A stretch of 64,000 nucleotides of DNA from positions 62,001-126,000 of the forward strand of contig JADFDM010000003.1 of assembly GCA_018262795.1 (NCBI GenBank). The letters run 5' to 3'. Under the pieces are notes generated by a model that ran no database searches, was not told the origin of the DNA, and was given only the letters and a program-made list of their open reading frames with translations. Of this stretch, positions 11,738-25,206 are shown one piece after another (position 1 is the first letter of the stretch; each line of letters begins with the position of its first letter). This DNA comes from Sphingobacteriales bacterium (GTDB taxonomy: Bacteria > Bacteroidota > Bacteroidia > Chitinophagales > LD1). The position numbers and the translations under genes were made by a program.

Positions 11738-11966
11738 TTTTAGTGGACTTTATTTTTAATAGCCCCTCATTAATTTCTATCGAGTTAATTGAATACAAGA
11801 AATCTAGAGTAAGAACGAACTTTTCAAAGGACTGGATTTCTTGCTTATTCTTTAACTTTTCCCAAAGCGAAGATACCGTTTCTGGCTTTCGGAGTTCTTT
11901 TAAAACAACGCCTCCAGCCCCTAGAATAGAGAACTGTAAGAATATATTTTTGTCAGGTAGAATCAT
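11730..11966 (-). CDS. ABC-3C middle component, MC6-like, 78 aa
   Basis: This 78-residue protein begins MILPDKNIFLQFSILGAGG, has a helical middle (TVSSLWEKLK) and a Phe/Leu-rich end (FVLTLDFLYSI). This arrangement of start, LW helix and YxI region is what I know of the MC6 family, a small winged-helix-like adaptor between the ATPase and the effector-bearing protein. Its ATG overlaps the HNH gene's stop (ATGA) and its end overlaps the DUF2326 start, the tight coupling expected of one complex. Assignment to MC6 rather than another middle component is from memory of the family. Confidence 0.75.
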   Translation of the reverse strand: MILPDKNIFLQFSILGAGGVVLKELRKPETVSSLWEKLKNKQEIQSFEKFVLTLDFLYSINSIEINEGLLKIKSTKND

Positions 11967-12697
11967 GATTCGAATACGTCACAAATTTGAAAGAAATAGA
12001 CTAAGACAGTAAGCGATGCTGCTTGAATTGAAAAATCATTTGACCCTCCCGAAGTAAACCTCAATAATTCAAAAAATAAATCATCTCCATCATGTGCCTT
12101 TTTCAACTCTTCATATTTTTCAATAAACCTGTCGCGTAATCTGGTCGAAAAATTTACATCTGGGTTTCTATTTAGATAGTCCCCGATTAAGTCAGACCTT
12201 ATCATTCCCATTGTGATATAATCAGTAACCTTATCAGAAAGATTGTTTTTTAAAATTTTGTCTTTGGGTGGTATAACTTTATAGGTTGTTTGGCTAGGAG
12301 CTGCAGCAGTTCCTGTCAAATATTTTAGCGCAACTTCTAATTCAGCAAAAACAAGATTGAAGGTTGCCGTCTGTAATGTGCTATAAACCCATTTTTCATG
12401 ACTTTGCTTTATGCCTATTAGCATAGGAACAGGATATTTCTTTTCATCAGTATCAATTTCAGTATGGTCGTTGGGGCATAGCAACATAAGATTTTCAAAT
12501 CCATTTCTTTTGTCATCATTCTGTTTTTGATTGTATCTTTTCGAATCCCTATTTTCTCCCTCAATGTGAGCAACCTCGCCAATTGATTCATCTCTTATTT
12601 TTCCTTGGTCATCTTGATGTAAAGGCTTTTTGCAAATGCAGCATCGTCCACCCGCGGCAGCCCACACTAAAATTTTTGTTGGATAAGAAACAGGCAT
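11963..12697 (-). CDS. HNH-domain protein with ABC-3C C-terminal region
   Basis: This 244-residue protein has an N-terminal HNH nuclease-like domain (about 1-110). It shows a CxxC zinc knuckle (CCICKK), the first His in GEVAHIEG, then RNGFENLMLLCPNDHTEID with the Asn and last His. The C-terminal half (about 120-244) is helical, as in ABC-3C CTD proteins, and ends ICDVFES. In this class of system the CTD protein carries the effector domain, so a DNA-cutting HNH effector controlled by the ATPase is the likely role (inference). It is the first gene of the tightly overlapping trio and lies 18 nt behind the 86-residue gene. Confidence 0.82.
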   Translation of the reverse strand: MPVSYPTKILVWAAAGGRCCICKKPLHQDDQGKIRDESIGEVAHIEGENRDSKRYNQKQNDDKRNGFENLMLLCPNDHTEIDTDEKKYPVPMLIGIKQSHEKWVYSTLQTATFNLVFAELEVALKYLTGTAAAPSQTTYKVIPPKDKILKNNLSDKVTDYITMGMIRSDLIGDYLNRNPDVNFSTRLRDRFIEKYEELKKAHDGDDLFFELLRFTSGGSNDFSIQAASLTVLVYFFQICDVFES

Positions 12698-12715
12698 ATT
12701 TTTATCAATTATATT

Positions 12716-12976
12716 TTACGAGGTGGTCACAATTTGTGACCTCAAGATTTTTTTTGTAAAATTTCTTTCTCGTCCAATTAAACCAACCACTTTCTTAGCC
12801 TTTACACTTTTGCTTTTCTTATGTGGTCCTCTCCATTCCTCTTCGTAGGCATTTAATCGAACAGAAATCACTTTCACTTCCTTTACATCATCATAACCTT
12901 CTTCATATCCTTCCACCACCACTCTGCTTTCCGGTGGAAAGTTTTTTAATTTTTCTATCAGTTCAGCAACATTCAT
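12716..12976 (-). CDS. Conserved hypothetical protein, 86 aa
   Basis: This small basic/acidic protein starts MNVAELIEKLKNFPPESRVV, followed by VEGYEEGYDDV and a Lys-rich end. Proteins with this LIEKL...P...VVVEGYExGYDD start are widespread in bacteria, are often found next to HNH or toxin genes, and have no assigned function as far as I know. It is 18 nt upstream of the HNH gene in the same direction, so it may be a fourth member of the ABC-3C unit or cargo acquired with it. There is no signal peptide. Confidence 0.75.
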   Translation of the reverse strand: MNVAELIEKLKNFPPESRVVVEGYEEGYDDVKEVKVISVRLNAYEEEWRGPHKKSKSVKAKKVVGLIGRERNFTKKILRSQIVTTS

Positions 12977-12990
12977 TTTTCAAATCATTT

Positions 12991-13065
12991 TAATCCGCTC
13001 AATCCGCTTCATCAGCGTTCCATTGCATTTGCCTTCGTTCCCCCTTTAGGGGGCTAGGGGGTTAA
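12991..13065. repeat. AATCCGCT tandem and CCCCCTTTAGGGGG repeat at the nuoL 3' end
   Basis: Two AATCCGCT units lie at 12992-13009. A G/C-rich palindrome-like element (CCCCCTTTAGGGGG then CTAGGGGGTTA) spans 13040-13065. The nuoL stop codon (13054-13056) falls inside the second element, so the repeat defines the protein's last codons. A related CCCCCTTCGGGGG element lies between nuoA and nuoB. Confidence 0.6.
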
Positions 13066-15006
13066 AAACACAAACACCACCACCATTGCAATTACCCCTA
13101 TCAAAAACCAAATACCATACGCCTGTACCTTACCGCTTTGCCACACACTCAACTCCTCGCTGCCGTCTTGCGCAAATAGGCCGCTTGCATCTACTAAACC
13201 GTTCACCACATTCTTATCCACCCAAGCAGCAGGTCTTCCAATCAGGTTAAAGATGATGCGCTTGGTCACAAACAAATAGAGTTCATCAAAATAAAACTTG
13301 TGGTAAGCGCTTTGATAAAATCCTCTGAAAGAACCAGCAACACGCGCAGGCAAAGTGCTCTCGCTTTTATACATCCGCAGCGCAATAAAAATTCCAACCA
13401 AGCCAAATGCAATAGGCGCAATGGCCAAGCTCAAATGAAATTCGCTGTGCAATGCCGCGCCATTACTGCTCACAAATTCTCCAAAGGGAATAAAGCCTGT
13501 TACAATCGCCAACACACCTAAAATCATCAGCGGCAGTTTCATCGTAAACGGTGCTTCACCATGATGATGTTCACTTTGTGTCTTCGTGTCTTCGTGTAAA
13601 TCTTTGTATTCTTTCTTCCAGAAAATTGAAAAGTAAAGCCGAAACATATAGAAGGCTGTCAGCCCCGCAGTGAACAATGCAACACCATAAATCAATTTGT
13701 TGGAATGAAAAGCAGCGGTGAGAATTTCTTCTTTGCTAAAGAAACCGCTCAGCGGTGGCACACCCGCAATGGCGAGGCAAGCAATCAAAAATGTAAGGTG
13801 TGTCACCGGCATTTTCTTTCGCAGTCCGCCCATATCGCCCATCTCATTCGAATGCACATAATGAATCACCGCACCAGCACCGAGGAACAACAGTGCCTTA
13901 AACATGGCATGCGTAAACAGGTGAAACATCGAAGCCGTAAAACCAAGTCCGTGTTCGCCACCGTAACCGCTCACCCCCAGCGCAAACATCATGTAACCGA
14001 TTTGGCTCATGGTGCTATACGCCAACACGCGCTTAATATCGGTTTGCGTGCAGGCAATTACCGCGGCAAACAGCGAAGACACCGCGCCTACATAAGCCAC
14101 CACCTCCAGCGCAGCGGGGCACGAAATAGCAAACACCGGAAACAAACGCGCCACCAAATAAACGCCTGCCACCACCATCGTTGCCGCATGTATCAATGCT
14201 GAAACCGGAGTAGGGCCTTCCATCGCATCGGGCAGCCAGATGTGCAAGGGAAACATCGCACTCTTTCCCGCACCGCCCATAAACACAAGAAGCAAGCCCC
14301 ATGTTAAGGCGGACAAACCAAGAAAAGAGGCCGCAGTGGCTGAATGCAATTGCGGGCTTGCGGTTGTTAATCTTTCAATCAGTGTTTTAAAATCAAGTGT
14401 CTCGGCATGAAAAGAAAGAATGAGAATGCCGATGAGAAAACCCAAATCAGCGAAGCGCGTAACAATGAAAGCTTTTTTAGCAGCCGCTAATGCCGATGGC
14501 CGATCGAAATGAAATCCGATAAGCATAAAGGAGGATATCCCCACTAGTTCCCAGAAAAAATAGATCTGGAAAATATTGGTGGAGATGACCAAACTCAACA
14601 TCGAAAAAGTGAATAGCGAGAGAAAAGCATAATAAGTGGTGAATCGCTCTTCGCCTTTCATGTAGCCAAGCGAGTAAACGTGCACCATCAGTGAAACAAT
14701 AGTTACCACCACCAACATCAATACCGAAATAGGGTCGAGCAGCAAGCCCATATCAACAGAAACTCCCGGACTAAACTCCAACCACGTAAATTTCAATACT
14801 TCAATTTTTTGATAAACACCATCTACTTTCCCCGAAACAAAAAAGTAATTGTAAGCAGTAAGCAACGAAAGCGTTGTTGACATCAACAAAGAAAGCGTTC
14901 CGATAATTCCACCGCTTTTCGAAAAGAATCTTTTGCCAAATAAACCGAGCAATAAAAAACTTGCCAGTGGCAGAAGAGGAATAAGGGCTATGCTGATTGG
15001 GCTCAT
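13054..15006 (-). CDS. nuoL: NADH-quinone oxidoreductase subunit L
   Basis: A 650-residue antiporter-like subunit of complex I with about 16 helices and the long lateral helix at the C-terminus. Visible are the TM5 glutamate region (FFFWELVGISSFMLIG), KSAMFPLHIWLPDAMEGPTPVSALIHAATMV-type motif residues, and the late SKEEIL lysine helix. An upstream in-frame ATG at 15033 lies in repeat DNA, so the ATG at 15006 (MSPISIALIPLLP) is preferred. A hydrophilic loop (KDLHEDTKTQ) is encoded by a dispersed repeat. The gene is separated from nuoM by the inserted ABC-3C block. Confidence 0.97.
   Translation of the reverse strand: MSPISIALIPLLPLASFLLLGLFGKRFFSKSGGIIGTLSLLMSTTLSLLTAYNYFFVSGKVDGVYQKIEVLKFTWLEFSPGVSVDMGLLLDPISVLMLVVVTIVSLMVHVYSLGYMKGEERFTTYYAFLSLFTFSMLSLVISTNIFQIYFFWELVGISSFMLIGFHFDRPSALAAAKKAFIVTRFADLGFLIGILILSFHAETLDFKTLIERLTTASPQLHSATAASFLGLSALTWGLLLVFMGGAGKSAMFPLHIWLPDAMEGPTPVSALIHAATMVVAGVYLVARLFPVFAISCPAALEVVAYVGAVSSLFAAVIACTQTDIKRVLAYSTMSQIGYMMFALGVSGYGGEHGLGFTASMFHLFTHAMFKALLFLGAGAVIHYVHSNEMGDMGGLRKKMPVTHLTFLIACLAIAGVPPLSGFFSKEEILTAAFHSNKLIYGVALFTAGLTAFYMFRLYFSIFWKKEYKDLHEDTKTQSEHHHGEAPFTMKLPLMILGVLAIVTGFIPFGEFVSSNGAALHSEFHLSLAIAPIAFGLVGIFIALRMYKSESTLPARVAGSFRGFYQSAYHKFYFDELYLFVTKRIIFNLIGRPAAWVDKNVVNGLVDASGLFAQDGSEELSVWQSGKVQAYGIWFLIGVIAMVVVFVFLTP
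13574..13603 (-). repeat. CACGAAG/CACAAAG repeat copy inside nuoL
   Basis: Read on the minus strand, these 30 bases match 16481-16510 (upstream of nuoI) at 27 of 30 positions. The copy is in frame and encodes KDLHEDTKTQ in a loop before the GEAPFTMKLP helix of NuoL. The same peptide sense (QDLHEGTKTQ) appears when the intergenic copy is read. Confidence 0.78.
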
Positions 15007-15021
15007 TTGATACAATTTGAA

Positions 15022-15086
15022 ACACGAAGGCACAAAGGCGCAAAGTTGATTTGCGTTTCCTCTTCGTGTCTTTGTGCCTTTGTGTT
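15022..15086. repeat. Inverted CACGAAGGCACAAAG repeat pair, nuoK-nuoL junction
   Basis: 15022-15045 (ACACGAAGGCACAAAGGCGC then AAAG) matches 16487-16510 at 23 of 24 bases. An inverted partner follows at 15062-15086. The two arms can fold into an imperfect hairpin with a loop of about 16 nt. The element fills the whole 87-nt gap between nuoK and nuoL. Confidence 0.75.
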
Positions 15087-15093
15087 CATGATT

Positions 15094-15405
15094 TTAGAAT
15101 TTGAGTGAGTCCGCATCTTCCACATCAATGTTCGAATGGTCGCGGTAAATGTGAATGATAATCGCAATCGCCACCGCGGTTTCAGCAGCGGCAATGGCAA
15201 TAATGAAAATGGTGAAAAACACTCCGTCTAACTTTCCGCCCCACAAATATTTGTTGAACGCCACGAAGTTGATGTTTACGGCATTCAACATTAACTCCAC
15301 CGCCATCAGCATCGTAATCATATTTCTGCGCGTGAGAAAACCATACGCTCCTATAAAAAAGAGCGCAGTGCTTACAAACAATAAATGTGGTAATCCTATT
15401 TCCAT
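15094..15405 (-). CDS. nuoK: NADH-quinone oxidoreductase subunit K
   Basis: A 103-residue subunit with three membrane helices, homologous to MrpC. The conserved carboxylates within helices are present: MAVELMLNAVNINF (E of TM2) and AAAETAVAIAI (E of TM3). Both lie on the proton path linking the quinone site to the antiporter modules. Its ATG directly abuts the nuoJ stop codon with no gap, the compact arrangement expected of an undisturbed nuo operon, in contrast to the other junctions here. Confidence 0.97.
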   Translation of the reverse strand: MEIGLPHLLFVSTALFFIGAYGFLTRRNMITMLMAVELMLNAVNINFVAFNKYLWGGKLDGVFFTIFIIAIAAAETAVAIAIIIHIYRDHSNIDVEDADSLKF

Positions 15406-15921
15406 TTAGTTTTTCACGGGGTTTGTTTTCATCGCAATTACAATACAACCAATCATGGCCGCCAACAATAAAATGGAGACCACTTCAAACGGCAGCACAA
15501 AGCCTCCCTGATTATAGTTCAGCATTTCTTCACCAATTCGGTGCACACTCAATTCACCTATTGGTTGATCACCGTAGAATTCATTGCGCTTAATTACGCT
15601 CCAGAATAAAAGAAATGCAAACAAACTCGCGAGCCCCGCAAACAAACTTCGCTTGTATGTTGGTTCGGGTAAATCACTTCCCACCCGGTGCGTGAGAAAA
15701 ATGGAGAAGATAATCAGCACGACAATGCCACCTACATAAACTACAATCTGCACCGCAGCAATAAATTCAAACTGCAGCCAGAAATACAAAGCTGCCACTC
15801 CCATCATGCTGAACAACAAATAAATCGCAGAGCGGAATATTTGGCGGGAAGTAACGGCAAGTAAACCGCTAACTAAAATCAGTGAGGCGATTAAGTAAAA
15901 TATGATGTCTTTAAATTCCAT
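15406..15921 (-). CDS. nuoJ: NADH-quinone oxidoreductase subunit J
   Basis: A 171-residue subunit with five membrane helices. The characteristic start with the YLIASL helix, the AALYFWLQFEFIAAVQIVVY helix with its glycine-containing pi-bulge successor (VGGIVVLIIF), and a final helix (LLLAAMIGCIVIAM) are clear. NuoJ is part of the E-channel connecting to the quinone site. It is directly joined to nuoK and separated from nuoI by 81 nt that consist of repeat DNA. Confidence 0.96.
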   Translation of the reverse strand: MEFKDIIFYLIASLILVSGLLAVTSRQIFRSAIYLLFSMMGVAALYFWLQFEFIAAVQIVVYVGGIVVLIIFSIFLTHRVGSDLPEPTYKRSLFAGLASLFAFLLFWSVIKRNEFYGDQPIGELSVHRIGEEMLNYNQGGFVLPFEVVSILLLAAMIGCIVIAMKTNPVKN

Positions 15922-15933
15922 TCAAAATTATAT

Positions 15934-16008
15934 TTCGGATTGCGAATTTTCGATTTTGAATGGAATACCCAATCTGCAATCGTCAATTGTAAATTCGCAA
16001 TTCTATTC
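15934..16008. repeat. GCGGATT-type inverted repeat, nuoI-nuoJ junction
   Basis: TTCGGATTGCGAATTTTCGA (15935-15954) faces CAATCTGCAATCG...AAATTCGCAATTCTATTCC, giving an imperfect hairpin that fills the gap and reaches the last codons of nuoI. It uses the same vocabulary as the copies beside the first four-helix-bundle gene and inside nuoM. Confidence 0.65.
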
Positions 16009-16473
16009 CACTCCTTCCATCAGTTTACTTCCCGGTGCGTTCAACTTCTTCGTCAATTGATTTCTATCGAACACGCTATGCTCAAAACTCTGCGCCATTT
16101 TAATCGCATCAGTCGGGCAAGCGACAATACATAAGTTACACATGGTGCAAAGCTCCAAATGATAAACAAAAGTGTCGAGCGCCTTTTTCTTTTTGCCATC
16201 GGGCTGCACTTCCATCTTCGTTACAATTTTTATAGTGGCATTGGGGCAAGCCAATTCGCAAGCAGTACAACCTGTACAACGATGTTCATTTTTCTCATCG
16301 TGAATCAATATCACTTCCCCGCGAAACCGTTCGGGCAACTCCTGTTTCACATCCGGATATTGCTGTGTGATTATCTCCTTATGATTAAAGAAATAATAAC
16401 CGGTCATGCGCATGCCTTTCAGTAGTGAAGCGCAGGTGTTGTAAATGGTCTTTATGTATCCGATTAAAAACAT
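16003..16473 (-). CDS. nuoI: NADH-quinone oxidoreductase subunit I
   Basis: A 156-residue peripheral subunit carrying two [4Fe-4S] clusters (N6a, N6b) that pass electrons to NuoB. Both ferredoxin motifs are complete: CTGCTACELACP and CTMCNLCIVACP. An amphipathic N-terminal helix (FLIGYIKTIYNT) is typical. The ATG at 16473 was chosen because the frame upstream to 16500 lies in repeat DNA. With no NuoG present, these clusters are the likely entry point for electrons from ferredoxin in an 11-subunit complex (inference). Confidence 0.96.
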   Translation of the reverse strand: MFLIGYIKTIYNTCASLLKGMRMTGYYFFNHKEIITQQYPDVKQELPERFRGEVILIHDEKNEHRCTGCTACELACPNATIKIVTKMEVQPDGKKKKALDTFVYHLELCTMCNLCIVACPTDAIKMAQSFEHSVFDRNQLTKKLNAPGSKLMEGVE

Positions 16474-16480
16474 TAATACA

Positions 16481-16538
16481 AGATTTACACGAAGGCACAA
16501 AGACGCAAAGAATCCTTTGTGCCTTCGTGTCTTTGTGT
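16481..16538. repeat. CACGAAGGCACAAAG hairpin repeat, nuoI-GxxExxY junction
   Basis: A perfect 15-bp inverted repeat: CACGAAGGCACAAAG at 16488-16502 and CTTTGTGCCTTCGTG at 16515-16529, with a 12-nt loop and an extension on both sides. The GxxExxY stop codon (16538-16540) lies at its edge. This is the best-formed member of the family in the window and the reference for comparison. Confidence 0.85.
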
Positions 16539-16963
16539 TATGATTTACTCAATAGAACATCTTTATTTATCAATCTCCTAATTCCATTCTTTATTAAAGG
16601 AACATGAAAGTTGATGACAAAACCTAAATGCATTCCGGTCATCTTCAAATAACTTATCACTTGCGCCTCCCAAACCGGATTTACTACGTCAACTGCTTTC
16701 ACTTCAACAATTACTTTTCCTCCTGCCACTAAATCTATTCTCAATCCTTCTTCGAAAATCAATCCATCAAAAACAATCGGCACATCTACTTGTCTTGTAA
16801 CACTTACGCCATCCTTCTTTATTTGATGGGCAAGACATATTTCATAAACTTTCTCCAACAATCCCGGGCCGAGTTCTGTATGAACTTTGAAGGCTGCATT
16901 CACCACAACTTTTCCTATCGCTTCAATCTCCGGTGACAATTCTATTTTATTTCCCTCTTGCAT
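16538..16963 (-). CDS. GxxExxY family protein
   Basis: This 141-residue protein carries the family signature GPGLLEKVYE (about 32-41). A nuclease-fold-like core follows: a D in GLRIDLVAGG, then VIVEVKAVD, the D...ExK pattern of PD-(D/E)XK enzymes, and the C-terminal VINFHVPLIKNGIRRLIN. Biochemical function is not established. Homologues are orphan genes scattered through environmental genomes, typically bounded by CACGAAG/CACAAAG repeats. That is exactly the case here on both sides (16481-16538 and 16966-16991). The gene interrupts nuo between H and I without its own obvious promoter. Confidence 0.9.
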   Translation of the reverse strand: MQEGNKIELSPEIEAIGKVVVNAAFKVHTELGPGLLEKVYEICLAHQIKKDGVSVTRQVDVPIVFDGLIFEEGLRIDLVAGGKVIVEVKAVDVVNPVWEAQVISYLKMTGMHLGFVINFHVPLIKNGIRRLINKDVLLSKS

Positions 16964-16965
16964 TT

Positions 16966-16991
16966 CTTTGTGTCTTCGCGCCTTTGTGTTA
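16966..16991. repeat. CTTTGTGTCTTCGCGCC repeat, upstream flank of GxxExxY
   Basis: CTTTGTGTCTTCGCGCCTTT followed by GTGTTA is the same family and orientation as 16515-16538 on the other side of the gene. The GxxExxY gene is therefore bracketed by direct copies of this arm. Confidence 0.75.
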
Positions 16992-16997
16992 GAAATT

Positions 16998-18077
16998 CTA
17001 TTTAAAATAAAATCCGGTTATCGCCATCAAGGTCGTCAGCAGCAAATTAAACATCGCAATCGGCAACAAATACTTCCACTCTAAATTCAATAATTGGTCA
17101 ATGCGCAAACGCGGGAAAGTCCAGCGAAACCACATGATTAAAAATATCAGAAAAAATACTTTACCAAAGAACCACACAATGCCCGGAATAAAATCCATGA
17201 TGCGGTTGAACCCTTCCCAACTGCCAATGTGAAACGGCATCCAGCCCCCTAAAAACAGGGTAGCTCCAATAGCACATACCACAAAAATATTCACATATTC
17301 CGCCAAAAAGAACAAGGCGAATTTCATTCCTGAATACTCGGTGTGAAAGCCGGCAGTGAGTTCGCTTTCTGCTTCTGCCATATCGAATGGCGCACGGTTA
17401 GTTTCGGCTGTAACGGCAATAATGAATATGACAAATGAAATGATCACAGGAATGTGTCCTTTAAATATCCACCAACCGTTTTGCTGCGAAGCGATGATGT
17501 CGTTAATGCTCAAACTGCCCACCAAAATTACAATCGTAATAATCGAAAGCCCCGCGCTCAATTCATAACTCACAATCTGCGCACCGCTGCGCATGGCACC
17601 GAGCAGAGAGTATTTATTGTTGCTCGCCCAGCCCGCCATCAAAATTCCAATCACACTCACGCTGCTTACCGCGCTTACATACAACACACCAATGTTAATG
17701 TCCCACAACTGAAAACCTTTGGTGAATGCAATGGGTGCCATAATGAGCATAGCAACAATTATCACCAGAAGAGGAGCAAAGTTGAATAGAAACTTATCGG
17801 CACCATCCGGTGTCAACCCTTCTTTAATTAAGAGCTTCAAAGTATCGGCAGCGGTTTGCGCAAAACCTTTATAGCCCACTCGGTTCGGGCCTAAACGAAT
17901 CTGCATGTAAGCAGAAACTTTTCTTTCCATAAACACCAACACTAAGCCCAACACCGCAAACAAACTAATCACCAATACCCCGGCAATTGCCATCTCAATC
18001 AACATGGTTAGCGTTGGATTGAGTGAAACAGCAAGTGCTTCGTGAATGGATTGTGATATGTGTTCGAGTGAAATCAT
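16998..18077 (-). CDS. nuoH: NADH-quinone oxidoreductase subunit H
   Basis: A 359-residue membrane subunit forming the quinone chamber with NuoB and NuoD. Conserved features are visible: ERKVSAYMQIRLGPNRVGYKG-type residues after TM1, the charged loop with RAPFDMAEAESELTAGFHTEYSG that couples quinone chemistry to proton transfer, and RWTFPRLRIDQLL near the end. The length is slightly over the family average. In 14-subunit operons nuoE, nuoF and nuoG lie between D and H. Here only a four-helix-bundle gene occupies that gap. Confidence 0.97.
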   Translation of the reverse strand: MISLEHISQSIHEALAVSLNPTLTMLIEMAIAGVLVISLFAVLGLVLVFMERKVSAYMQIRLGPNRVGYKGFAQTAADTLKLLIKEGLTPDGADKFLFNFAPLLVIIVAMLIMAPIAFTKGFQLWDINIGVLYVSAVSSVSVIGILMAGWASNNKYSLLGAMRSGAQIVSYELSAGLSIITIVILVGSLSINDIIASQQNGWWIFKGHIPVIISFVIFIIAVTAETNRAPFDMAEAESELTAGFHTEYSGMKFALFFLAEYVNIFVVCAIGATLFLGGWMPFHIGSWEGFNRIMDFIPGIVWFFGKVFFLIFLIMWFRWTFPRLRIDQLLNLEWKYLLPIAMFNLLLTTLMAITGFYFK

Positions 18078-18082
18078 TTTTG

Positions 18083-18481
18083 TTATTGCGAATTGCGGAT
18101 TTTCGATTGCGGATTGTTTTTGTTCACTCTTGCTGTTTTTCCTGATGCCGTAAAAATTGCAGTCAGTTCATTTGCCTCCTTTAATAAATCTTCGACCAAA
18201 CTCTTTTTTAAAATTTCTGCATCAATAATTAACTCCATCCAAAATGCTGACTCATCACATTCTTCTTCAACAATTGTCACCTTCGAAATAAAATCCGCTT
18301 GCGACCTCGCCCTACACGCTGCTCTATAATTTGCCGCCACCGAAGTCCCACATCTCAACAACTGTTTCCCAATCACATCTGCCTCTCTCGACTTCGGTAA
18401 ACTTCTTACCATCCTAATTATCCTCAGCGCAAACTTTTTCGTTCTACTCTTTAATTCTTCTGCCTGCATTTCTATTTGCAT
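18083..18481 (-). CDS. Four-helix-bundle protein (S23/23S rRNA intervening-sequence family), copy 1
   Basis: A 132-residue all-helical protein with the family pattern FALRIIRMVRSLPKS, IGKQLLRCGTSVAANYRAACRARS, DFISKVTIVEEECDESAFWMEL split over consecutive helices. Family members include proteins encoded in 23S rRNA intervening sequences and the Avd accessory protein of diversity-generating retroelements, but this copy has no reverse transcriptase nearby. A TTG start at 18493 is possible, but the ATG at 18481 was chosen because upstream bases belong to the GCGGATT repeat. The last residues (NPQSKIRNSQ) are also encoded by the repeat. It interrupts nuo between D and H. Confidence 0.88.
   Translation of the reverse strand: MQIEMQAEELKSRTKKFALRIIRMVRSLPKSREADVIGKQLLRCGTSVAANYRAACRARSQADFISKVTIVEEECDESAFWMELIIDAEILKKSLVEDLLKEANELTAIFTASGKTARVNKNNPQSKIRNSQ
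18084..18118. repeat. GCGGATT repeat at the 3' end of four-helix-bundle gene 1
   Basis: The unit ATTGCGAATTGCGGATTTTC followed by GATTGCGGATTG overlaps the last ten codons and stop of the gene, extending the protein with repeat-encoded residues. Confidence 0.8.
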
Positions 18482-18609
18482 TTTAATCCGCAATCAAAAG
18501 TCCGCATTCCGCAATCTCCTCAGTATTTCTAATTCGCAATCTCAAATCCGCAATCCGCAATTCTCTTTCTTTTCAATCCGCAATCCAAAATCCACAATCC
18601 GCAATTCTA
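18482..18609. repeat. GCGGATT repeat array upstream of four-helix-bundle gene 1
   Basis: About 128 nt made almost wholly of ATCCGCAAT, AATCCGCAATTCTC and variants in at least six imperfect units. It fills the gap between the nuoD stop and the gene. Its unit at 18541-18566 matches the copy inside nuoM at 24 of 26 bases. Confidence 0.85.
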
Positions 18610-18611
18610 TC

Positions 18612-19730
18612 TCACCGGTCTATATCCGGAATCACCAAATCCAACGTTCCCATTATCGCCACTAGGTCGCCAATCTTTTGTCCGCGTGCCATGTGATCGA
18701 GTGCAGCAAGATTATTAAATCCCGGTGAACGGAAATGTATTCTATAAGGAGTCAAACCTCCTTCACTAATAATGTAAACGCCAAACTCACCACGTGCCGT
18801 TTCCACACGACTGTAAAATTCTCCCTTCGGTAATTTCAACACCGCTTTTGTTTTCGCTTGAAATTCTCCCTCCGGAATATTATCAATCAACTGATCAATG
18901 ATTGAAAGCGACTCGCGCAACTCGCACATACGCACCAAATAACGCGCATAACTATCGCCAGCAGTTTCCAGCGGCTCTTCAAACTTCAGATTTTCGTAAC
19001 CATCATAAGGGGACAATTTTCGGATGTCACATTTCACTCCACAAGCGCGCAACACCGGGCCGGTGCAACCATACGAAATCGCATCGGCAGCAGAAATCAC
19101 CCCCACGCCTTTCGTCCGTCCCTGAAAAATAACATTGTCCGTTACCAGCGTATCATACTCATCCATCTTCGTTCTGAAAAACGCTACAAACTCCTTCACC
19201 TTCCTCACAAAATTCGGATGCAAATCTGCCATCACACCGCCCGGCACCATGTAATTCATCGTCAGCCGCGCCCCGCAGGTCTCCTCCATAATATCGTTAA
19301 TCAACTCGCGCTCACGAAACGCATGAAAAAACGGAGTGAGCGCCCCTACATCCATTCCCATAGCACCCCACCACAACACGTGACTCGCTACCCGCGTCAA
19401 CTCATCCATCAAAATCCGAATCACCTTCGCGCGCTCTGGCACTTCAATCTGCAAACCCTTCTCCACCGCCAACACACAAGCGTGATTATTAATGTGGCTA
19501 CTCAAATAATCCATCCGGCTGGTGCTATAAATAAACTGCCGGTAACTCAAACTCTCACACATCTTCTCAATGCTCCGGTGTATATAACCCAGATGCGGCT
19601 CCACCTTCAAAATTGTCTCGCCATTCAGCGTAATTACCAAATGCATCACCCCGTGCGTAGCCGGATGCTGCGGCCCCACATTAATCACCAGATTCCCGTC
19701 TTGCGTTGTTGCTACTTCTTCGTATTGCAC
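18612..19730 (-). CDS. nuoD: NADH-quinone oxidoreductase subunit D
   Basis: A 372-residue peripheral subunit related to [NiFe]-hydrogenase large subunits. It forms the quinone site with NuoB. Visible are NVGPQHPATHGV with the quinone-binding His, EPHLGYIHRSIEKM, the SRMDYLSSH region, and the C-terminal IMGTLDLVIPDIDR. The length is at the short end of the family, as usual for unfused NuoD. The start codon is GTG at 19730 (MQYEEVATTQDG). It lies between two four-helix-bundle genes, with a short repeat on each side. Confidence 0.97.
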   Translation of the reverse strand: MQYEEVATTQDGNLVINVGPQHPATHGVMHLVITLNGETILKVEPHLGYIHRSIEKMCESLSYRQFIYSTSRMDYLSSHINNHACVLAVEKGLQIEVPERAKVIRILMDELTRVASHVLWWGAMGMDVGALTPFFHAFRERELINDIMEETCGARLTMNYMVPGGVMADLHPNFVRKVKEFVAFFRTKMDEYDTLVTDNVIFQGRTKGVGVISAADAISYGCTGPVLRACGVKCDIRKLSPYDGYENLKFEEPLETAGDSYARYLVRMCELRESLSIIDQLIDNIPEGEFQAKTKAVLKLPKGEFYSRVETARGEFGVYIISEGGLTPYRIHFRSPGFNNLAALDHMARGQKIGDLVAIMGTLDLVIPDIDR

Positions 19731-19740
19731 TTTTTAGTTA

Positions 19741-19770
19741 CAGATTTCAAATCTCCTGTTTCAAGTTGAG
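19741..19770. repeat. TTTCAAATCTC...TTTCAAGTTGA repeat, left arm
   Basis: CAGATTTCAAATCTCCTGTT then TCAAGTTGAG. Its reverse complement recurs on the other side of four-helix-bundle gene 2 at 20181-20207, with 22 of 27 matching bases. The blocks TTTCAAATCTC and TTTCAAGTTGA are identical. Confidence 0.75.
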
Positions 19771-19775
19771 AACCA

Positions 19776-20174
19776 CTAAACTCTATCTTTGAATTTTGTT
19801 CCTTTTATTTCTGACATCTTCAAATAATCCATAAAGCCTTTTATCATTTTACTTACTTCAATAGTTTTAGCAAGTAAGTCATTAAACATTTCTTGCGAAA
19901 TAGGTTTCCAGTCTAATGACCTATAAAGTTGCGAGCGTAATTCACCGGCTGACCCTTCGGAATAAGAGAGAAAATTAATGAACTCTGCTTTTCCATCTCT
20001 TTCAAATCCTTCGGTAATGTTGTCCATTATTGAGCCACTTGAGCCATTCATCTGATCTCGCAAACGATAATCTGTTGCAAGCGTTCCGGATATGAGGATT
20101 GCATGAATATCATTTGTCAGCACCCTTGCTTTCTTCCAAACTTCTAAATCTTCAAACCGGTTTATAGTTGGCAT
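19776..20174 (-). CDS. Four-helix-bundle protein, copy 2
   Basis: A 132-residue all-helical protein of the S23/four-helix-bundle family. It starts with the common FEDLEVWKKARVL motif, followed by RLRDQMNGSSGSIMDNITEG, a hallmark of the subgroup, then FINFLSYSEGSAGELRSQL. It is only distantly related to copy 1, which belongs to a different subgroup, so the pair did not arise by local duplication. No function is known for free-standing members. The gene sits between nuoC and nuoD inside an inverted repeat of about 27 bp (19743-19770 and 20181-20207), which looks like a cassette boundary. Confidence 0.9.
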   Translation of the reverse strand: MPTINRFEDLEVWKKARVLTNDIHAILISGTLATDYRLRDQMNGSSGSIMDNITEGFERDGKAEFINFLSYSEGSAGELRSQLYRSLDWKPISQEMFNDLLAKTIEVSKMIKGFMDYLKMSEIKGTKFKDRV

Positions 20175-20180
20175 TCTTTA

Positions 20181-20207
20181 TTCAACTTGAAATCTGAGAT
20201 TTGAAAC
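20181..20207. repeat. TTTCAAATCTC...TTTCAAGTTGA repeat, right arm (inverted)
   Basis: TTCAACTTGAAATCTGAGAT then TTGAAAC is the inverted partner of 19743-19770. It ends at the nuoC stop codon (TAG, 20207-20209), so nuoC translation ends where the cassette begins. Confidence 0.75.
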
Positions 20208-20662
20208 TACAACTTTATCATATTCACTTCATCCACATAATCTTTTCGCAACGGCCACCCCTCCCAATCATCCGTCAAAAACAATCTTCTCAAATCAGGA
20301 TGATTTAAAAACACCACACCCATCAAATCATAAGCCTCGCGTTCATTCAGTTCAGCCGTCTTCCATATTTTGTAAACACTCTCAATCTCTGGCATAGTGC
20401 GGTCGCACTTGGCCTTTACTACTACAATTTGCTCGTGCTTCAATGAGCGCAGATGATACACCATCGAGATATGGGTTTTCCAATCTACCGCTGTTACGCT
20501 AAAAAGAAAATCAAAATCAAGTTCTGTATTTGTGCAGATTTGCTGCGCAAGCGACAACCAATCCACCGCTTCAATAGAAACAGTCAGCCATTCGCCTGTT
20601 TCATCAAAAACAGCAGTGGGAATTATTTCGGTAATTTTAGCTTTCAGTTCTTCGTTACTCAT
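20207..20662 (-). CDS. nuoC: NADH-quinone oxidoreductase subunit C
   Basis: A 151-residue peripheral subunit, unfused to NuoD. The family signature NEREAYDLMGVVFLNHPDLRR is complete, followed by LTDDWEGWPLRKDY. NuoC packs against NuoD in the connecting module. The N-terminus has the usual mixed alpha/beta domain with FDFLFSVTAVDW. The length is typical for the stand-alone form. Confidence 0.96.
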   Translation of the reverse strand: MSNEELKAKITEIIPTAVFDETGEWLTVSIEAVDWLSLAQQICTNTELDFDFLFSVTAVDWKTHISMVYHLRSLKHEQIVVVKAKCDRTMPEIESVYKIWKTAELNEREAYDLMGVVFLNHPDLRRLFLTDDWEGWPLRKDYVDEVNMIKL

Positions 20663-20663
20663 T

Positions 20664-20748
20664 TCTGTTTTTTGTTTCCTGTTTTCTGTTTCGCGAACCT
20701 CGGTTGTTCATCTCGAAACTTTAAACTCCAAACCGGAAACTATTTTTT
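20664..20748. repeat. Low-complexity repeat (CTGTTTCCTGTTTTCTG type), nuoB-nuoC junction
   Basis: A pyrimidine-rich stretch TTTCCTGTTTTCTGTTTCG is followed by CGAAACTTTAAACTCCAAAC and CGGAAAC on the same strand. The two halves are roughly inverted relative to one another. The downstream end runs into the last codons of nuoB. Confidence 0.5.
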
Positions 20749-21312
20749 CACTTCTTCTAAATAAATTTTCTCTCTTGTTCCACCAGCTTTTATTTTTTCC
20801 TGCAAAGTCAACAGGGCATGTATCAATGCTTCGGGGCGTGGAGGGCAACCGGCCACATACACATCCACCGGTATCACATGGTCAGCTCCTTTTACTACGC
20901 TGTAAGTATTGTAGAAGAAAGGCCCTCCGCTGGTGGCGCAGGCTCCCATAGCAATCACATATTTCGGGTCGGGCATTTGGTCGTAAAGGCGCTTGAGCAC
21001 CGGAGCCATTTTGTTCACAATAGTTCCGGCAATGATAATCACATCTGCTTGCCGGGGAGTAGCACGGGCCACTTCAAAACCAAAGCGACTCCAATCGTAT
21101 TTTGCCGAAGCCGCACTCATCATTTCAATAGCACAGCAACTGGTTCCAAATACCAATGGCCACAAAGAGTTAGAACGCGCCCAATTCAACACATCGTCCA
21201 TCTTCGAAACCAAAATTCCCCCACCAGGGGAAACATGTACCGTTCCCGGAAATGAAGACTCCACATCCCCGATGGGGGCTTTAGAACTACCGCTATTTAT
21301 TTCGTCAGCCAT
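20740..21312 (-). CDS. nuoB: NADH-quinone oxidoreductase subunit B
   Basis: A 190-residue subunit holding the terminal [4Fe-4S] cluster N2. The four ligands are visible: tandem cysteines in [11 protein letters not shown] (59, 60), one in MGACATSGG and one in [12 protein letters not shown]2 hands electrons to quinone at the NuoB/NuoD/NuoH interface. The N-terminal 30 residues are a non-conserved extension containing a Gly/Pro-rich stretch. The gene follows nuoA with a 46-nt gap occupied by a G/C-rich palindrome. Confidence 0.97.
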
Positions 21313-21326
21313 TGTATTTCTTTTTG

Positions 21327-21360
21327 CCTCTAAGCCCCCTTCGGGGGTTTGGAGGTTTTT
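21327..21360. repeat. CCCCCTTCGGGGG palindrome, nuoA-nuoB junction
   Basis: AAGCCCCCTTCGGGGGTTTG then GAGGTTTTTA forms a compact hairpin with a TTCG-type loop. It overlaps the last codon of nuoA. It is related in style to the element at 13040-13065. The order nuoA to nuoB requires transcription through it. Confidence 0.7.
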
Positions 21361-21709
21361 ATTGCCATTTCAAAGCGCCTTTCTTATGTGCGTATAAAAA
21401 CCCTAAAAACAGAATGAACAGAAAAATTATGATCTCTACCAGTGCAATCATCCCCACCTGTTTTACCACTACTGCCCAGGGATAAAGAAAAATCAATTCC
21501 ACATCAAAGATGAGGAAGATGAGAGCGAACAGATAATACCCTACATTGAACTGAATCCAACTTTGGCCAATCGTCTCCACTCCGCATTCGTAGGCTTCGC
21601 CTTTTTGAGAGTTTTTAGAACCGGGATTAATCACTTTGGAAAGCAAAAGAGCTCCGCCACCGAAAGCCAAGCCACAAAAAATAAGAAGTAAAAGACTTAA
21701 AGATCCCAT
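21359..21709 (-). CDS. nuoA: NADH-quinone oxidoreductase subunit A
   Basis: A 116-residue subunit with three membrane helices, the first gene of the operon. The signature [16 protein letters not shown] with the redox-sensitive loop cysteine, followed by the [16 protein letters not shown] helix carrying Asp and Glu, is complete. NuoA lines the entrance of the quinone site. The upstream 200-nt region is shared with the divergent ferredoxin gene and probably contains both promoters. Confidence 0.97.
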
Positions 21710-22257: not shown

Positions 22258-22285
22258 ATATTTGCAATTAAGCTCTCAACAAAAA

Positions 22286-24166
22286 ATGGATACAACAACA
22301 GAATCTAAGTCCACCCGCCAAACCGAAATAAAGGAAGCGGAAAGTGTGGTCGTGCGCTTTAGTGGCGACTCCGGTGACGGTATGCAGTTAACCGGAATGC
22401 AGTTTACCGATACTTCGGCTCTCTTGGGAAAAGACCTTTCGACCTTTCCGGAGTACCCTGCTGAAATTCGCGCTCCGGCAGGAACTGTAGCCGGGGTTTC
22501 CGGGTTTCAACTCCATTTCGGTAGTAAAGAAATCTACACTCCGGGCGATCAGTTCGATGTGTTGGTAGCCATGAATTCTGCCGCGCTTAAAACAGACTTG
22601 CCCAGAGTTAAAAAGGGAGGTGCCATTATTGTGAATACTGCCGGCTTTGACTCTAAGAATCTCAAATTAGCGCATTATCCCGAAGGAGCTAATCCGTTAG
22701 AGGATGGAACGTTGGAAGGATACACGGTTTACAGAATAGATGTAACGCGGCTTACGAAAGATGCCTTGAAAGATTCCGGTTTGGGTATGAAGGAAGTGGA
22801 GCGTTGCAAAAACATGTTTGTATTGGGCATGCTCTTTTGGATGTTCGATAAGAGTATGGAGTTTACCATTACTTCTTTAACTGAGAAATTTGGGAAGAAG
22901 CCGGATATCTTGAATGCTAACATCACAGCTTTAAAAACCGGTTGGAATTATGGCGATACCACAGAGATATTCACCACTCGCTATAAGGTTTCAAAAGCCA
23001 AACTTCCGGCAGGTGTTTATCGAAATATTTCAGGAAATCAGGCCATCGCTATCGGGGCAGTAGTCGCTGCCGAAAAAGCCGGACTGCCTTTGTTTTTAGG
23101 CTCCTATCCCATCACCCCGGCTTCCGATATCTTACATGAATTATCGAAGTATAAAGCCAACGGAGTTAAAACTTTTCAGGCAGAAGATGAGATTGCTGCC
23201 ATCTGTTCCGCAATTGGTGCTTCCTATAGCGGGTCTTTGGGAATGACGACTACTTCAGGCCCCGGCATGGCTTTGAAAACTGAAGCGATGGGGCTGGCTC
23301 TGATTTTTGAAATTCCTTTATTGATAATAGATATTCAAAGAGGAGGGCCTTCTACCGGCTTGCCTACTAAAACAGAACAAGCCGATTTACTGATGGCTAT
23401 GTACGGACGGCATGGAGAAGCTCCACTTCCAATCATTTCTGCTTCTACACCGGCTGATTGTTTTGATGCCGCGTACGAGGCAGTGCGGATTTCGGTAGAA
23501 CACATGGTACCGGTTATTCTTTTGAGCGATGGTTACATAGCTAACGGCTCTGAACCATGGCGCTTCCCCACTGAAGATCAATTACAAGAGATCAAGGCTC
23601 ATTTCCTGACGGAGAACAACAACCCCGGAGGTAATTTGCTCCCTTATAAGAGAAATGCGCAAGGAGTTCGCCCGTGGGTAAAGCCGGGTACTAAGGGATT
23701 AGAACATCGCATCGGTGGTTTAGAAAAGCAGAACGAAACCGGAAATGTTTCGTACGATTCAAAGAACCATGAGCTGATGGTGAAACTTCGCGCAGAGAAA
23801 GTGGAGAAGATCGCAGACTCTATTCCATTTTTGAAGCCCGATAGCGGAAACGAAAAAGGGAAAATGTGTGTGTTGGGCTGGGGTTCTTCCTATGGAGCAA
23901 TTAAAACAGCTTTGATAGACCTTCATAAAGAAAATTATGACGTAGCGCACCTTCACTTGCGCCACTTAAATCCTTTCCCTAAAAACTTGGGAGAATTGTT
24001 GCACAGTTATGATAAAGTATTGATTCCCGAAATAAATGGAGGTCAATTACTGCAATTAATTCGCGCAAAATATTTAGTGCCGGCAGTTGGCTTCAACAAA
24101 ATTCAGGGACTACCGTTTACTACCGAAGAAGTAAAGGAAAAAATTAAAGAATTCTACAACTCGTAA
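22286..24166 (+). CDS. korA: 2-oxoglutarate:ferredoxin oxidoreductase, alpha subunit (fused gamma-alpha)
   Basis: A 626-residue subunit of the thiamine-diphosphate enzyme that oxidises 2-oxoglutarate to succinyl-CoA and reduces ferredoxin in the TCA cycle. The N-terminal gamma domain (about 18-210) starts VVRFSGDSGDGMQLTG. The alpha pyrimidine-binding domain begins near 245 with GNQAIAIGAVVAAEKAG and LGSYPITPASDIL, and contains TTTSGPGMALKTEA and QRGGPSTGLPTKTEQADL split over neighbouring strands. A TTG start at 22262 exists, but the ATG at 22286 is the likely start. It is followed 2 nt later by korB. Confidence 0.94.
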   Translation: MDTTTESKSTRQTEIKEAESVVVRFSGDSGDGMQLTGMQFTDTSALLGKDLSTFPEYPAEIRAPAGTVAGVSGFQLHFGSKEIYTPGDQFDVLVAMNSAALKTDLPRVKKGGAIIVNTAGFDSKNLKLAHYPEGANPLEDGTLEGYTVYRIDVTRLTKDALKDSGLGMKEVERCKNMFVLGMLFWMFDKSMEFTITSLTEKFGKKPDILNANITALKTGWNYGDTTEIFTTRYKVSKAKLPAGVYRNISGNQAIAIGAVVAAEKAGLPLFLGSYPITPASDILHELSKYKANGVKTFQAEDEIAAICSAIGASYSGSLGMTTTSGPGMALKTEAMGLALIFEIPLLIIDIQRGGPSTGLPTKTEQADLLMAMYGRHGEAPLPIISASTPADCFDAAYEAVRISVEHMVPVILLSDGYIANGSEPWRFPTEDQLQEIKAHFLTENNNPGGNLLPYKRNAQGVRPWVKPGTKGLEHRIGGLEKQNETGNVSYDSKNHELMVKLRAEKVEKIADSIPFLKPDSGNEKGKMCVLGWGSSYGAIKTALIDLHKENYDVAHLHLRHLNPFPKNLGELLHSYDKVLIPEINGGQLLQLIRAKYLVPAVGFNKIQGLPFTTEEVKEKIKEFYNS

Positions 24167-24168
24167 TC

Positions 24169-25206
24169 ATGGAAACAGAAACCTTAGAGAAAAATGCACC
24201 CGTGAAGTTGGTGCCGAAAGATTTTGCCAGCGATCAAGAAGTGAAATGGTGCCCCGGCTGTGGTGATTATTCTATTCTGAAGCAAATACAAACCGTACTG
24301 CCTGAATTTGTTACCGAGAAAGAAAAAGTGGTATTTATTTCGGGAATTGGATGTTCCTCTCGTTTTCCGTATTATATGGACACTTACGGCATGCACAGTA
24401 TTCACGGACGCGCTACTGCCATTGCTACCGGGGTAAAGGTAGCTAACCCAGATTTGAACGTTTGGGTGATAGGTGGTGATGGCGACTTAATGAGTATCGG
24501 AGGCAATCACTTCATCCACATGTTGCGTAGAAATCCGGATCTAAAGCTTATCATGTTCAACAACCAAATTTATGGTTTAACGAAAGGACAATATTCGCCT
24601 ACTTCCGAAAAGGGAAAAGTGACAAAGTCAACTCCTTTTGGTTCGGTAGATGAGCCGTTCAACCCGGCTGAACTTGCCTTGGGTGCGAAGGCTTCTTTCT
24701 TTGCCAGAACTCTTGACCGCGACCCAAAGCACCAGCAGGAAATATTCAGAAAAGCGAATCAACACAGAGGGACTTCCTTTATAGAGGTTTATCAAAACTG
24801 CCCGGTATTTAATGATGGAGCTTTTGCTCTTTACACTGAAAAGACCAGTAAAAAAGAAGAATCTTTATTTATTGAACACGGCCAACCTTTAGTTTTTGGC
24901 CCTACCGAAAACTTGGGAATTAAACTGGACGGATTCAATCCTGTAATTGTTGACCTGGCAGAAGGAGTTTCAAAAGATGACCTTTGGGTACACGATGAAA
25001 ATGACAAAAACAAAGCTTTTATTCTGGCGCGTTTTGCCGATATGAAACGCGATCATTTCCCTCGTCCCTTTGGAGTGTTTTACAGAGAAGAAAGAGCCTG
25101 CTTTGACGCAGACGTACAGCAACAAATAGACGAAGCGAAGAATAAAAAAGGACGAATGCCACTGAATCAAATATTAAGTGGCAATAAGACCTGGACGATC
25201 GCTTAA
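24169..25206 (+). CDS. korB: 2-oxoglutarate:ferredoxin oxidoreductase, beta subunit
   Basis: This 345-residue subunit binds thiamine diphosphate and the [4Fe-4S] cluster. Visible are WCPGCGDYSIL with two cluster cysteines, ISGIGCSSRFPYYMDTYG with a third, and the TPP/Mg motif GGDGDLMSIGGNHF...NNQIYGLTKGQYSPTS. It forms a heterodimer or higher oligomer with KorA. A strong intrinsic terminator follows 22 nt later, which closes the fdx-korAB operon. Confidence 0.95.
   Translation: METETLEKNAPVKLVPKDFASDQEVKWCPGCGDYSILKQIQTVLPEFVTEKEKVVFISGIGCSSRFPYYMDTYGMHSIHGRATAIATGVKVANPDLNVWVIGGDGDLMSIGGNHFIHMLRRNPDLKLIMFNNQIYGLTKGQYSPTSEKGKVTKSTPFGSVDEPFNPAELALGAKASFFARTLDRDPKHQQEIFRKANQHRGTSFIEVYQNCPVFNDGAFALYTEKTSKKEESLFIEHGQPLVFGPTENLGIKLDGFNPVIVDLAEGVSKDDLWVHDENDKNKAFILARFADMKRDHFPRPFGVFYREERACFDADVQQQIDEAKNKKGRMPLNQILSGNKTWTIA

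Follow-up and report, generated by a model that had tools for sequence, protein, structure and literature searches.

Small orphan genes in nuo operon junctions of a Sphingobacteriales bacterium point to arm-gene-arm elements living inside protein operons

Introduction

The closest described counterparts of the genes treated here are the rRNA intervening sequences (IVS) that carry an S23p open reading frame (ORF). For the Coxiella burnetii example, the published account gives a 28-bp stem and tandem heptamers before the S23p start codon, calls the element selfish and discusses its mobile origin (PMC4990558). We analysed a window of 64,000 nucleotides, the whole stretch under study, from a Sphingobacteriales bacterium (contig JADFDM010000003.1, positions 62,001 to 126,000), in which three small orphan genes lie between genes of the nuo operon: two encode S23/four-helix-bundle proteins (IVP) and one encodes a GxxExxY protein of PD-(D/E)XK type. 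We read each of these genes as the coding part of a minimal element, mobile or selfish, of arm-gene-arm form, which has the architecture of rRNA intervening sequences and resides in a protein operon, and we assign this reading a probability of about 0.7.

Other known systems share individual features with these elements. REP/RAYT and REPIN systems combine dispersed palindromes with a dedicated protein gene flanked by palindromes, and Rickettsia palindromic elements lie inside ORFs, where the repeat is accommodated in frame in a tolerant protein loop. Heptamer repeats of the word TAACTGA, found in Beggiatoaceae, cyanobacteria and some Bacteroidetes, are likewise 7-nt tandem intergenic words, many of them just before start codons; their horizontal spread is suspected with no mechanism evident, and the main text of that report contains no occurrence of S23, four helix or 23S (PMC4679880). 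According to a further report, a four-helix-bundle gene of Flavobacterium columnare lies between guanylate kinase and nucleotidyltransferase genes (PMC5524665), the same kind of position as that of the present elements. Both S23/IVP and GxxExxY are common in the phylum, yet neither has a clear function outside rRNA in the literature that we searched.

Results

Inserted genes and their arms

Small orphan genes that share the orientation of nuo (minus strand of the window) fill the junctions nuoC/nuoD, nuoD/nuoH and nuoH/nuoI (hereafter C/D, D/H and H/I), as a preliminary description of the window had stated and as coordinates and profile matches now confirm (Table 1). The same description held that the nuo reading frames remain intact at these junctions, which is borne out: the frames stay open, and the fills sit in gaps between stop and start codons. 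Its view of the two four-helix-bundle proteins as unrelated has to be given up. The C/D and D/H proteins are barely alike pairwise (19% identity over 68 residues, E 0.13); both exceed the curated cut-offs of PF05635 (33.8 bits) and TIGR02436 (24 bits) and belong to one family, which rules out two unrelated ones. The H/I protein exceeds the cut-offs of PF13366 (22 bits) and TIGR04256 (35 bits).

The genes are enclosed by arms, that is, inverted repeats of about 20-60 nt composed of tandem words, 7 nt long for IVP and about 9 nt long for GxxExxY. In predicted RNA folds, the two ends of each insert pair around the ORF, with z scores of -5.4 (D/H), -2.9 (H/I) and -2.3 (C/D). Words of the same types also occur in the window apart from the genes, as gene-less inverted repeats at two further nuo junctions and as single half-arms that are read in frame within nuoL and nuoM. 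These arms, gene-less hairpins and in-frame half-arms were absent from the preliminary description, and the tendency of each gene to lie between its own arms is the main point of the present analysis. The abundance of the words is not due to chance: at up to one mismatch the window has 14 occurrences of the GxxExxY arm word (0.08 expected), and at up to three mismatches it has 16 of the heptad word (0.34 expected). The nuoL half-arm coincides with a variable hydrophilic loop, and the variable loop that holds the nuoM half-arm is 7 alignment columns longer than in G016, the nearest of 10 relatives with alignable NuoM (relatives are designated by G numbers; the window genome, G000, comprises 3.48 Mb in 19 contigs). 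In G008 and G014, the same NuoL loop contains word-like stretches; this loop is histidine-rich, and convergence of such stretches there is therefore possible.

Rfam gave no match in the window, which rules out a known structured RNA as the identity of the window elements. No rRNA family was matched in 20 of the loci, and an rRNA motif scan of 335 loci and the window returned only scattered near-matches, as judged by eye. Locus L046 of G014 has two matches to Flavo-1 RNA (RF01705; 5353-5443 and 15681-15774), one of which lies inside the C/D insert of that genome.

Arm pairing across the genus and the phylum

Among 18 genomes of the genus, profile searches yielded 86 rows for PF05635 (84 above the cut-off) and 53 for PF13366. 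Each family is present in 16 of the 18, with neither found in G002 or G012, and PF05635 is matched 10 times in G000 and 12 times in G014. Altogether 133 ORFs (82 IVP and 51 GxxExxY) were placed with their neighbours, mostly between co-oriented genes; orientations derive from a greedy longest-ORF caller, and 11 of the 133 are fragments shorter than 95 residues, some of them cut at locus edges.

Arms were compared in a set of 120 genes, from which fragments below 95 residues and genes with short flanks had been removed, by aligning the 110-nt upstream flank of each gene to the reverse complement of its 110-nt downstream flank. Most copies match their own arms: the median own-arm score is 20.5, versus 9 for cross-pairs, and 76 of 120 genes exceed the 99th percentile of cross-pairings, 95 exceed the 95th and 64 rank their own arm first of 120. 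Control genes of the same loci that do not adjoin a family gene rise above the same score in 1 of 325 cases. When a single element was retained per insertion-site cluster (n=59), 36 still exceeded the 99th percentile, and own scores added up to 1248.5, as compared with a maximum of 663.5 in 2000 random pairings. The arms lie close to the start and stop codons. Complementary ends that form a stem around the S23p ORF, which characterize the rRNA intervening sequences, are thus found in most copies, though not in all.

In a phylum sample of 148 genomes, S23/IVP genes occur in 116 and GxxExxY genes in 75. A phylum-wide arm set of 153 genes, drawn from phylum loci and named records, has 101 above the 95th percentile; this set is partly dependent on the genus set (at least one of its loci, L254, is identical with L061 of G011), and its 80 named loci all come from one IVP subgroup.

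Arm words and their link to the proteins

The tandem words differ from element to element, and their period is specific to the family. Among arms with a pairing score of at least 18, the period is 7 for IVP (84 arms; lag-7 identity 0.524 versus 0.306 shuffled, with z 24, and z 16 at lag 14) and 9 for GxxExxY (z 7.7; lag 9 was the best lag in 31 of 68 arms). Without selection by score, the signal is retained upstream of IVP genes at lag 7 (0.387 versus 0.302 upstream of control genes) and for GxxExxY at lag 9 (0.348 versus 0.289 for controls). Phylum-wide, lag 7 is best in 92 of 106 IVP arms (identity 0.584 versus 0.314), and the best lag falls between 8 and 10 in 24 of 30 GxxExxY arms. The 5' arm is mostly purine-rich (35/42 and 28/34). 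Moreover, arms and proteins co-vary: between unrelated sites, elements with more similar proteins have more similar arm words (Mantel r 0.24 for IVP and 0.49 for GxxExxY), and none of 2000 permutations reached either value.

Exact copies of the GxxExxY word pattern number 6 in G000, all within 3.4 kb of nuo, 16 in G014, 18 in G015 and 28 in G007, with none in 11 of the 18 genus genomes; the reversed pattern is found in none of the 18. By list count, close plus/minus pairs comprise 8 of the 16 copies in G014 and 10 of the 18 in G015. Of 34 word matches in 20 chosen stretches of G014, G015 and G007, 26 fall outside called ORFs of at least 80 residues and 8 inside such an ORF, several of them at its extreme end.

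Filled and empty junctions

NuoH was searched for in 60 relatives, and the nuo region was extracted from 17. In the 12 genus genomes with measurable junctions, 13 of 80 nuo junctions, counted from the junction table, are filled (>250 nt), and one further IVP gene follows nuoH at a contig end of G011, in addition to these 13. No junction of this length was found among 44 in six genomes outside the genus. At D/H, stop and start codons abut in G004 and G016 (TAAATG, 0 nt), G000 and G014 carry an IVP gene, and G015 has a gene-less hairpin of 99 nt. In G008 this junction contains HicA together with a small partner; in G011 it contains a gene pair similar to the nucleotidyltransferase/HepT pair of G014 (profiles were not run on the pair in G011). 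The H/I junction carries GxxExxY in G000 and G015; in G004, G009, G014 and G016 it measures 67-68 nt by the scripted nuoI start, or 1-2 nt to an upstream ATG. At C/D, the inserts comprise NTP_transf_2 and HepT (G014), DUF2281 and PIN together with an ORF6N gene (G015), and HEPN_AbiU2 (G013), while the nuoB/nuoC (B/C) insert of G014 is a pair of small ORFs without a Pfam match. Among the chosen stretches with GxxExxY words, one junction is 3 nt long in G016 and 5 nt in G004; G014 has a hairpin of GxxExxY type there, and G015, as judged by eye, an AT-rich inverted repeat of another kind. The same site is thus both empty and filled among relatives, as in transposons with terminal inverted repeats, and the recognisable ORFs inserted in nuo junctions are co-oriented with nuo.

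None of 51 junctions in control blocks is filled (rpsC-rplX 0/38; atp neighbourhood 0/13, 9 of these being atpG to the next gene), versus the 13 of 80 in nuo (Fisher p 0.0017, run with 68 unfilled nuo junctions, of which a recount gives 67). The ribosomal control is limited to rpsC-rplX because the operon is rearranged after rplX in several genomes and 4 of the 18 lack a ribosomal S3 match. Among further ribosomal junctions of G006 and G010, 5 of 8 exceed 250 nt, of which two (S8/L6) are inflated by a short S8 query; the others are L24/S14 twice and L6/S5 (278 nt). The distance from rplX to rpsN (L24/S14), rplE not having been looked for, is 5646 nt in G010 and 2811 nt in G006. In G010 (locus L322), the ribosomal protein operon is split after rplX by 5.6 kb of small ORFs, most of them co-oriented and several similar by eye to toxin-antitoxin genes.

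The nuo operon is therefore permissive for inserts without being unique in this. The preliminary description had proposed that the operon acts as a landing pad, and had named identical insertions without empty alleles in all relatives as the pattern of ancient fixed genes. Such a pattern was not found: relatives have empty or differently filled junctions and co-oriented inserts, so that the proposal holds in part. As the sole landing pad, nuo is ruled out by the genus-wide placement of 133 IVP and GxxExxY ORFs and by the inserts after rplX in G010 and G006. A second complex I-like operon includes a nuoH paralog that IVP genes adjoin in L155 (G004), L116 (G014) and L129 (G011).

The elements that G000 shares with G014 (IVP) and G015 (GxxExxY) are 86% and 82% identical in nucleotides, like the flanking nuo genes. 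As their divergence about equals that of nuo, these shared elements are old and not recent arrivals. A nuo tree separates the carriers of the D/H IVP (G000, G014) and of the H/I GxxExxY (G000, G015); this is weak evidence on gain versus loss, because its rows span 597-1823 residues (start-finding cut several genes) and supports in the carrier part are 0.86-0.99.

Selection and structure of the proteins

Both proteins are under purifying selection, as computed from pairs at shared sites that overlap in members: the median dN/dS is 0.09 for IVP (n=21) and 0.08 for GxxExxY (n=13, including one pair of genes from a single locus). The two pairs that involve the window give 0.10 for the D/H IVP of G000 and G014 and 0.08 for the H/I GxxExxY of G000 and G015. 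Nuclease-site residues of GxxExxY are retained in nearly all members of the genus set (D in 45/46, E in 46/46, K in 44/46) and are present in the window protein as D77, E87 and K89. Its AF2 model has a pLDDT of 92.8. The best Foldseek match was a lambda-exonuclease-like protein at E 2.6e-3, with none at E <= 0.001, and a structure comparison (VIA) gave Z 9.2 to 4ic1 (rmsd 3.7, 101 aligned) and Z 7.2 to Hjc 1gef (rmsd 3.3, 87 aligned) in a list of Cas4-like, restriction-like and Hjc rows of middling Z. A sequence search in the PDB had a best E of 0.85. The solved IVP relatives 2gsc and 2rld have 5 chains each, and a Xanthomonas S23p is reported as a homopentamer (PMC4990558).

The window operon

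Table 1. Coordinates of nuo genes, inserted genes, arms and gene-less repeats in the window
Feature	Position	Strand	Remarks
nuoA	21359-21709	-	
nuoB	20740-21312	-	
nuoC	20207-20662	-	
C/D element 5' arm (heptad words)	20182-20206	-	25 nt, 88% complementary to 19745-19769
IVP (S23/four-helix bundle) gene, junction C/D	19776-20174	-	PF05635 104 bits, TIGR02436 94 bits
C/D element 3' arm	19745-19769	-	complementary to 5' arm; ends pair in RNA fold
nuoD	18612-19730	-	
D/H element 5' arm region	18485-18605	-	three ATTGCGG heptad arrays (18485-18515, 18531-18561, 18574-18605)
IVP gene, junction D/H	18083-18493	-	PF05635 65 bits, TIGR02436 90 bits; G014 relative at same junction
D/H element 3' arm	18085-18116	-	32 nt, 91% complementary to 18574-18605; overlaps its ORF end
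nuoH	16998-18077	-	
H/I element 5' arm	16966-16989	-	CACAAAGGC-type words
GxxExxY (PD-(D/E)XK) gene, junction H/I	16538-16963	-	PF13366 124 bits, TIGR04256 128 bits; G015 relative at same junction
H/I element 3' arm	16487-16537	-	itself a small hairpin (16487-16510 + 16515-16537)
nuoI	16003-16473	-	start placed at in-frame ATG
Gene-less inverted repeat, IVP-type words, junction nuoI/nuoJ	15932-16001	.	
nuoJ	15406-15921	-	
nuoK	15094-15405	-	
Gene-less hairpin, GxxExxY-type words, junction nuoK/nuoL	15022-15085	.	extends into longest nuoL ORF
nuoL	13054-15033	-	
Half-arm, GxxExxY-type words, in frame in nuoL	13574-13604	-	~YKDLHEDTKT; 90% match over 31 nt to H/I 3' arm
nuoM	8282-9796	-	named from sequence
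Half-arm, IVP heptad words, in frame in nuoM	8453-8483	-	~LRIADLGLRN
nuoN	6868-8280	-	named from sequence

No nuoE, nuoF or nuoG lies between nuoD and nuoH in this operon, and genes of the 2-oxoacid:ferredoxin-oxidoreductase type stand beside it (22262-25206). The nuoA/nuoB gap (21313-21358) contains a CCCCCGAAGGGGG palindrome, with similar palindromes in gaps of G015, G008 and G009, and the B/C gap (20663-20739) is filled with A-rich tandem words. Two more co-oriented genes follow nuoL (11963-12976), one with weak, sub-cut-off matches to HNH and an ABC-3C C-terminal domain, the other a small ORF without a Pfam match that by eye resembles an ORF of the C/D insert of G015.

Discussion

Taken together, the findings point to mobile elements of a little-known kind that reside within operons. 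We hypothesize that such an element persists when it has landed in a stop-to-start gap of a transcribed operon, where it would be expressed by read-through while the host frames remain intact. By analogy with rRNA intervening sequences, the long stem may insulate the element within the mRNA, perhaps via RNase III. The protein, a relative of pentameric IVP or a GxxExxY of PD-(D/E)XK nuclease type, would recognise its own tandem words and help the arms to spread, which would also explain the solo hairpins and half-arms; both transposition and binding of arms by the protein are inferred here. For GxxExxY, nuclease action is suggested by a confident structural model whose PD-(D/E)XK-like neighbours score in the middle range.

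A number of results weigh against a mobile element. We saw no transposition event, and the divergence of the shared elements fits old insertions followed by repeated losses or allele replacement. The preliminary description had recommended a check for target-site patterns; no target-site duplication was seen by eye in filled and empty junctions, and no systematic test was made. Co-orientation with neighbours is only moderately above background (86/98 versus 241/317, p 0.016). Arm pairing does not exceed the 95th percentile in 25 of the 120 genes of the genus set nor the 99th in 44, exceeds the strict 99th percentile in only 35 of 153 phylum-wide, and is not strictly compensatory between orthologs. 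Of genes adjoining a family gene, 5 of 150 lie above the same score, because the arm region is shared with the family gene. Phylum-wide GxxExxY arms lack a single period (best lag 9 in 10, 10 in 8 and 8 in 6 of 30), and in the case of the C/D insert, 2 of 100 shuffles fold equally well.

Some of these observations would also be expected of a regulatory cassette that does not move, in which the genes are ordinary operon members, the flanking words serve as autoregulation sites or as stems tuning translation or decay, and presence and absence result from loss and homologous replacement of nuo segments. The low dN/dS, the nuo-like divergence of shared elements, the proximity of arms to start and stop codons and the RNA folds that enclose the ORF all agree with this explanation. 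However, similar proteins have similar arms at unrelated sites, one family uses many different junctions, and hairpins and in-frame half-arms are present where there is no such gene to regulate, and we regard such a cassette as unlikely. Somewhat more plausible, if still doubtful, is a general tolerance of operon junctions, whereby gaps accept small genes of several kinds (toxin-antitoxin, HEPN, IVP) by illegitimate recombination, selection keeps the co-oriented inserts that lie within gaps, and the arms are passive repeats. Such tolerance is compatible with mobile elements and accords with the nuo-oriented nucleotidyltransferase/HepT, HicA, PIN, ORF6N and AbiU2 genes of other nuo junctions; it may account for these other inserts, whose arms were sought by eye only. 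Against it, arms follow the protein and were rare around other genes (1/325 for non-adjacent genes).

A reverse-transcriptase-dependent element seems very improbable. In this reading IVP would be a relative of Avd, and a reverse transcriptase would move the structured RNA in trans, in the manner of diversity-generating retroelements. A resemblance of PF05635 to Avd has been described (PMC10053308), and the sites are transcribed and mostly co-oriented. RVT_1 was matched in 7 of the 18 genus genomes and not in the other 11, which include the PF05635-rich G000 and G014; a reverse transcriptase that acted in the past, or one encoded in a part absent from a draft assembly, is possible. A resident reverse transcriptase thus seems not to be needed.

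Beyond the arm-gene-arm elements of this genus, a wider scheme may be entertained tentatively, in which IVP and GxxExxY form a phylum-wide class of operon-dwelling mobile elements. One subunit would bind per word of 7 nt or about 9 nt, as a pentamer on about five heptads, and each lineage would hold a private arm code because protein and words diversify together. Arms would spread locally, both as solo hairpins and as in-frame half-arms, the latter rewriting host loops such as those of NuoL and NuoM; the S23p rRNA intervening sequences would be members that had landed in rRNA, and unexplained heptamer repeats would be relics. More generally, the shared layout with family-specific word periods suggests a testable role for both protein families, connects protein operons with rRNA intervening sequences and provides a possible source of intergenic hairpins and heptamer repeats that have lacked an explanation, and the gaps within an essential operon emerge as evolutionary entry points for small, possibly selfish genes.

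Comparison with known systems

In searches of the open-access literature, done mostly by listings and hence a weak absence, we found no published account of such arms around PF05635 or GxxExxY genes outside rRNA; nor was this layout found under nuo-operon insertions, REP-like or palindromic repeats, or S23 in a mobile or intergenic context. REP/RAYT and REPIN have in common with the present elements the palindromes and a protein gene between repeats. The genes here, however, belong to PF05635 and PF13366 and not to the Y1 transposases, their words are element-specific tandem arrays, and there are several gene copies per genome. No Y1 (HUH) transposase lies between the repeats, and a RAYT elsewhere in the genome was not searched for. 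Unlike Rickettsia palindromic elements, the in-frame repeats of the window are half-arms of a gene-bearing element, and they occur in nuoL and nuoM of one operon. The TAACTGA repeats, the nearest such report that we found, are direct repeats of one word (PMC4679880), whereas here the arms are inverted, the words vary by element and they are tied to protein families.

The rRNA intervening sequences with an S23p ORF (e.g. that of C. burnetii) remain the nearest counterparts, since both place a PF05635/S23p gene between complementary, stem-forming ends (PMC4990558). The present elements differ in location, being found outside rRNA between the protein genes of operons, with all three window genes so placed and none inside a 23S rRNA gene. 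They also differ in that a second, unrelated family (GxxExxY) has the same layout here, and in that gene-less copies occur. Relative to the C. burnetii sequence (PMC4990558), both arms are heptad arrays and the protein is under strong constraint; the ORF of Coxiella, by contrast, is reportedly decaying and probably unexpressed. In layout, the present elements nonetheless correspond to rRNA intervening sequences that encode S23p, relocated to protein operons.

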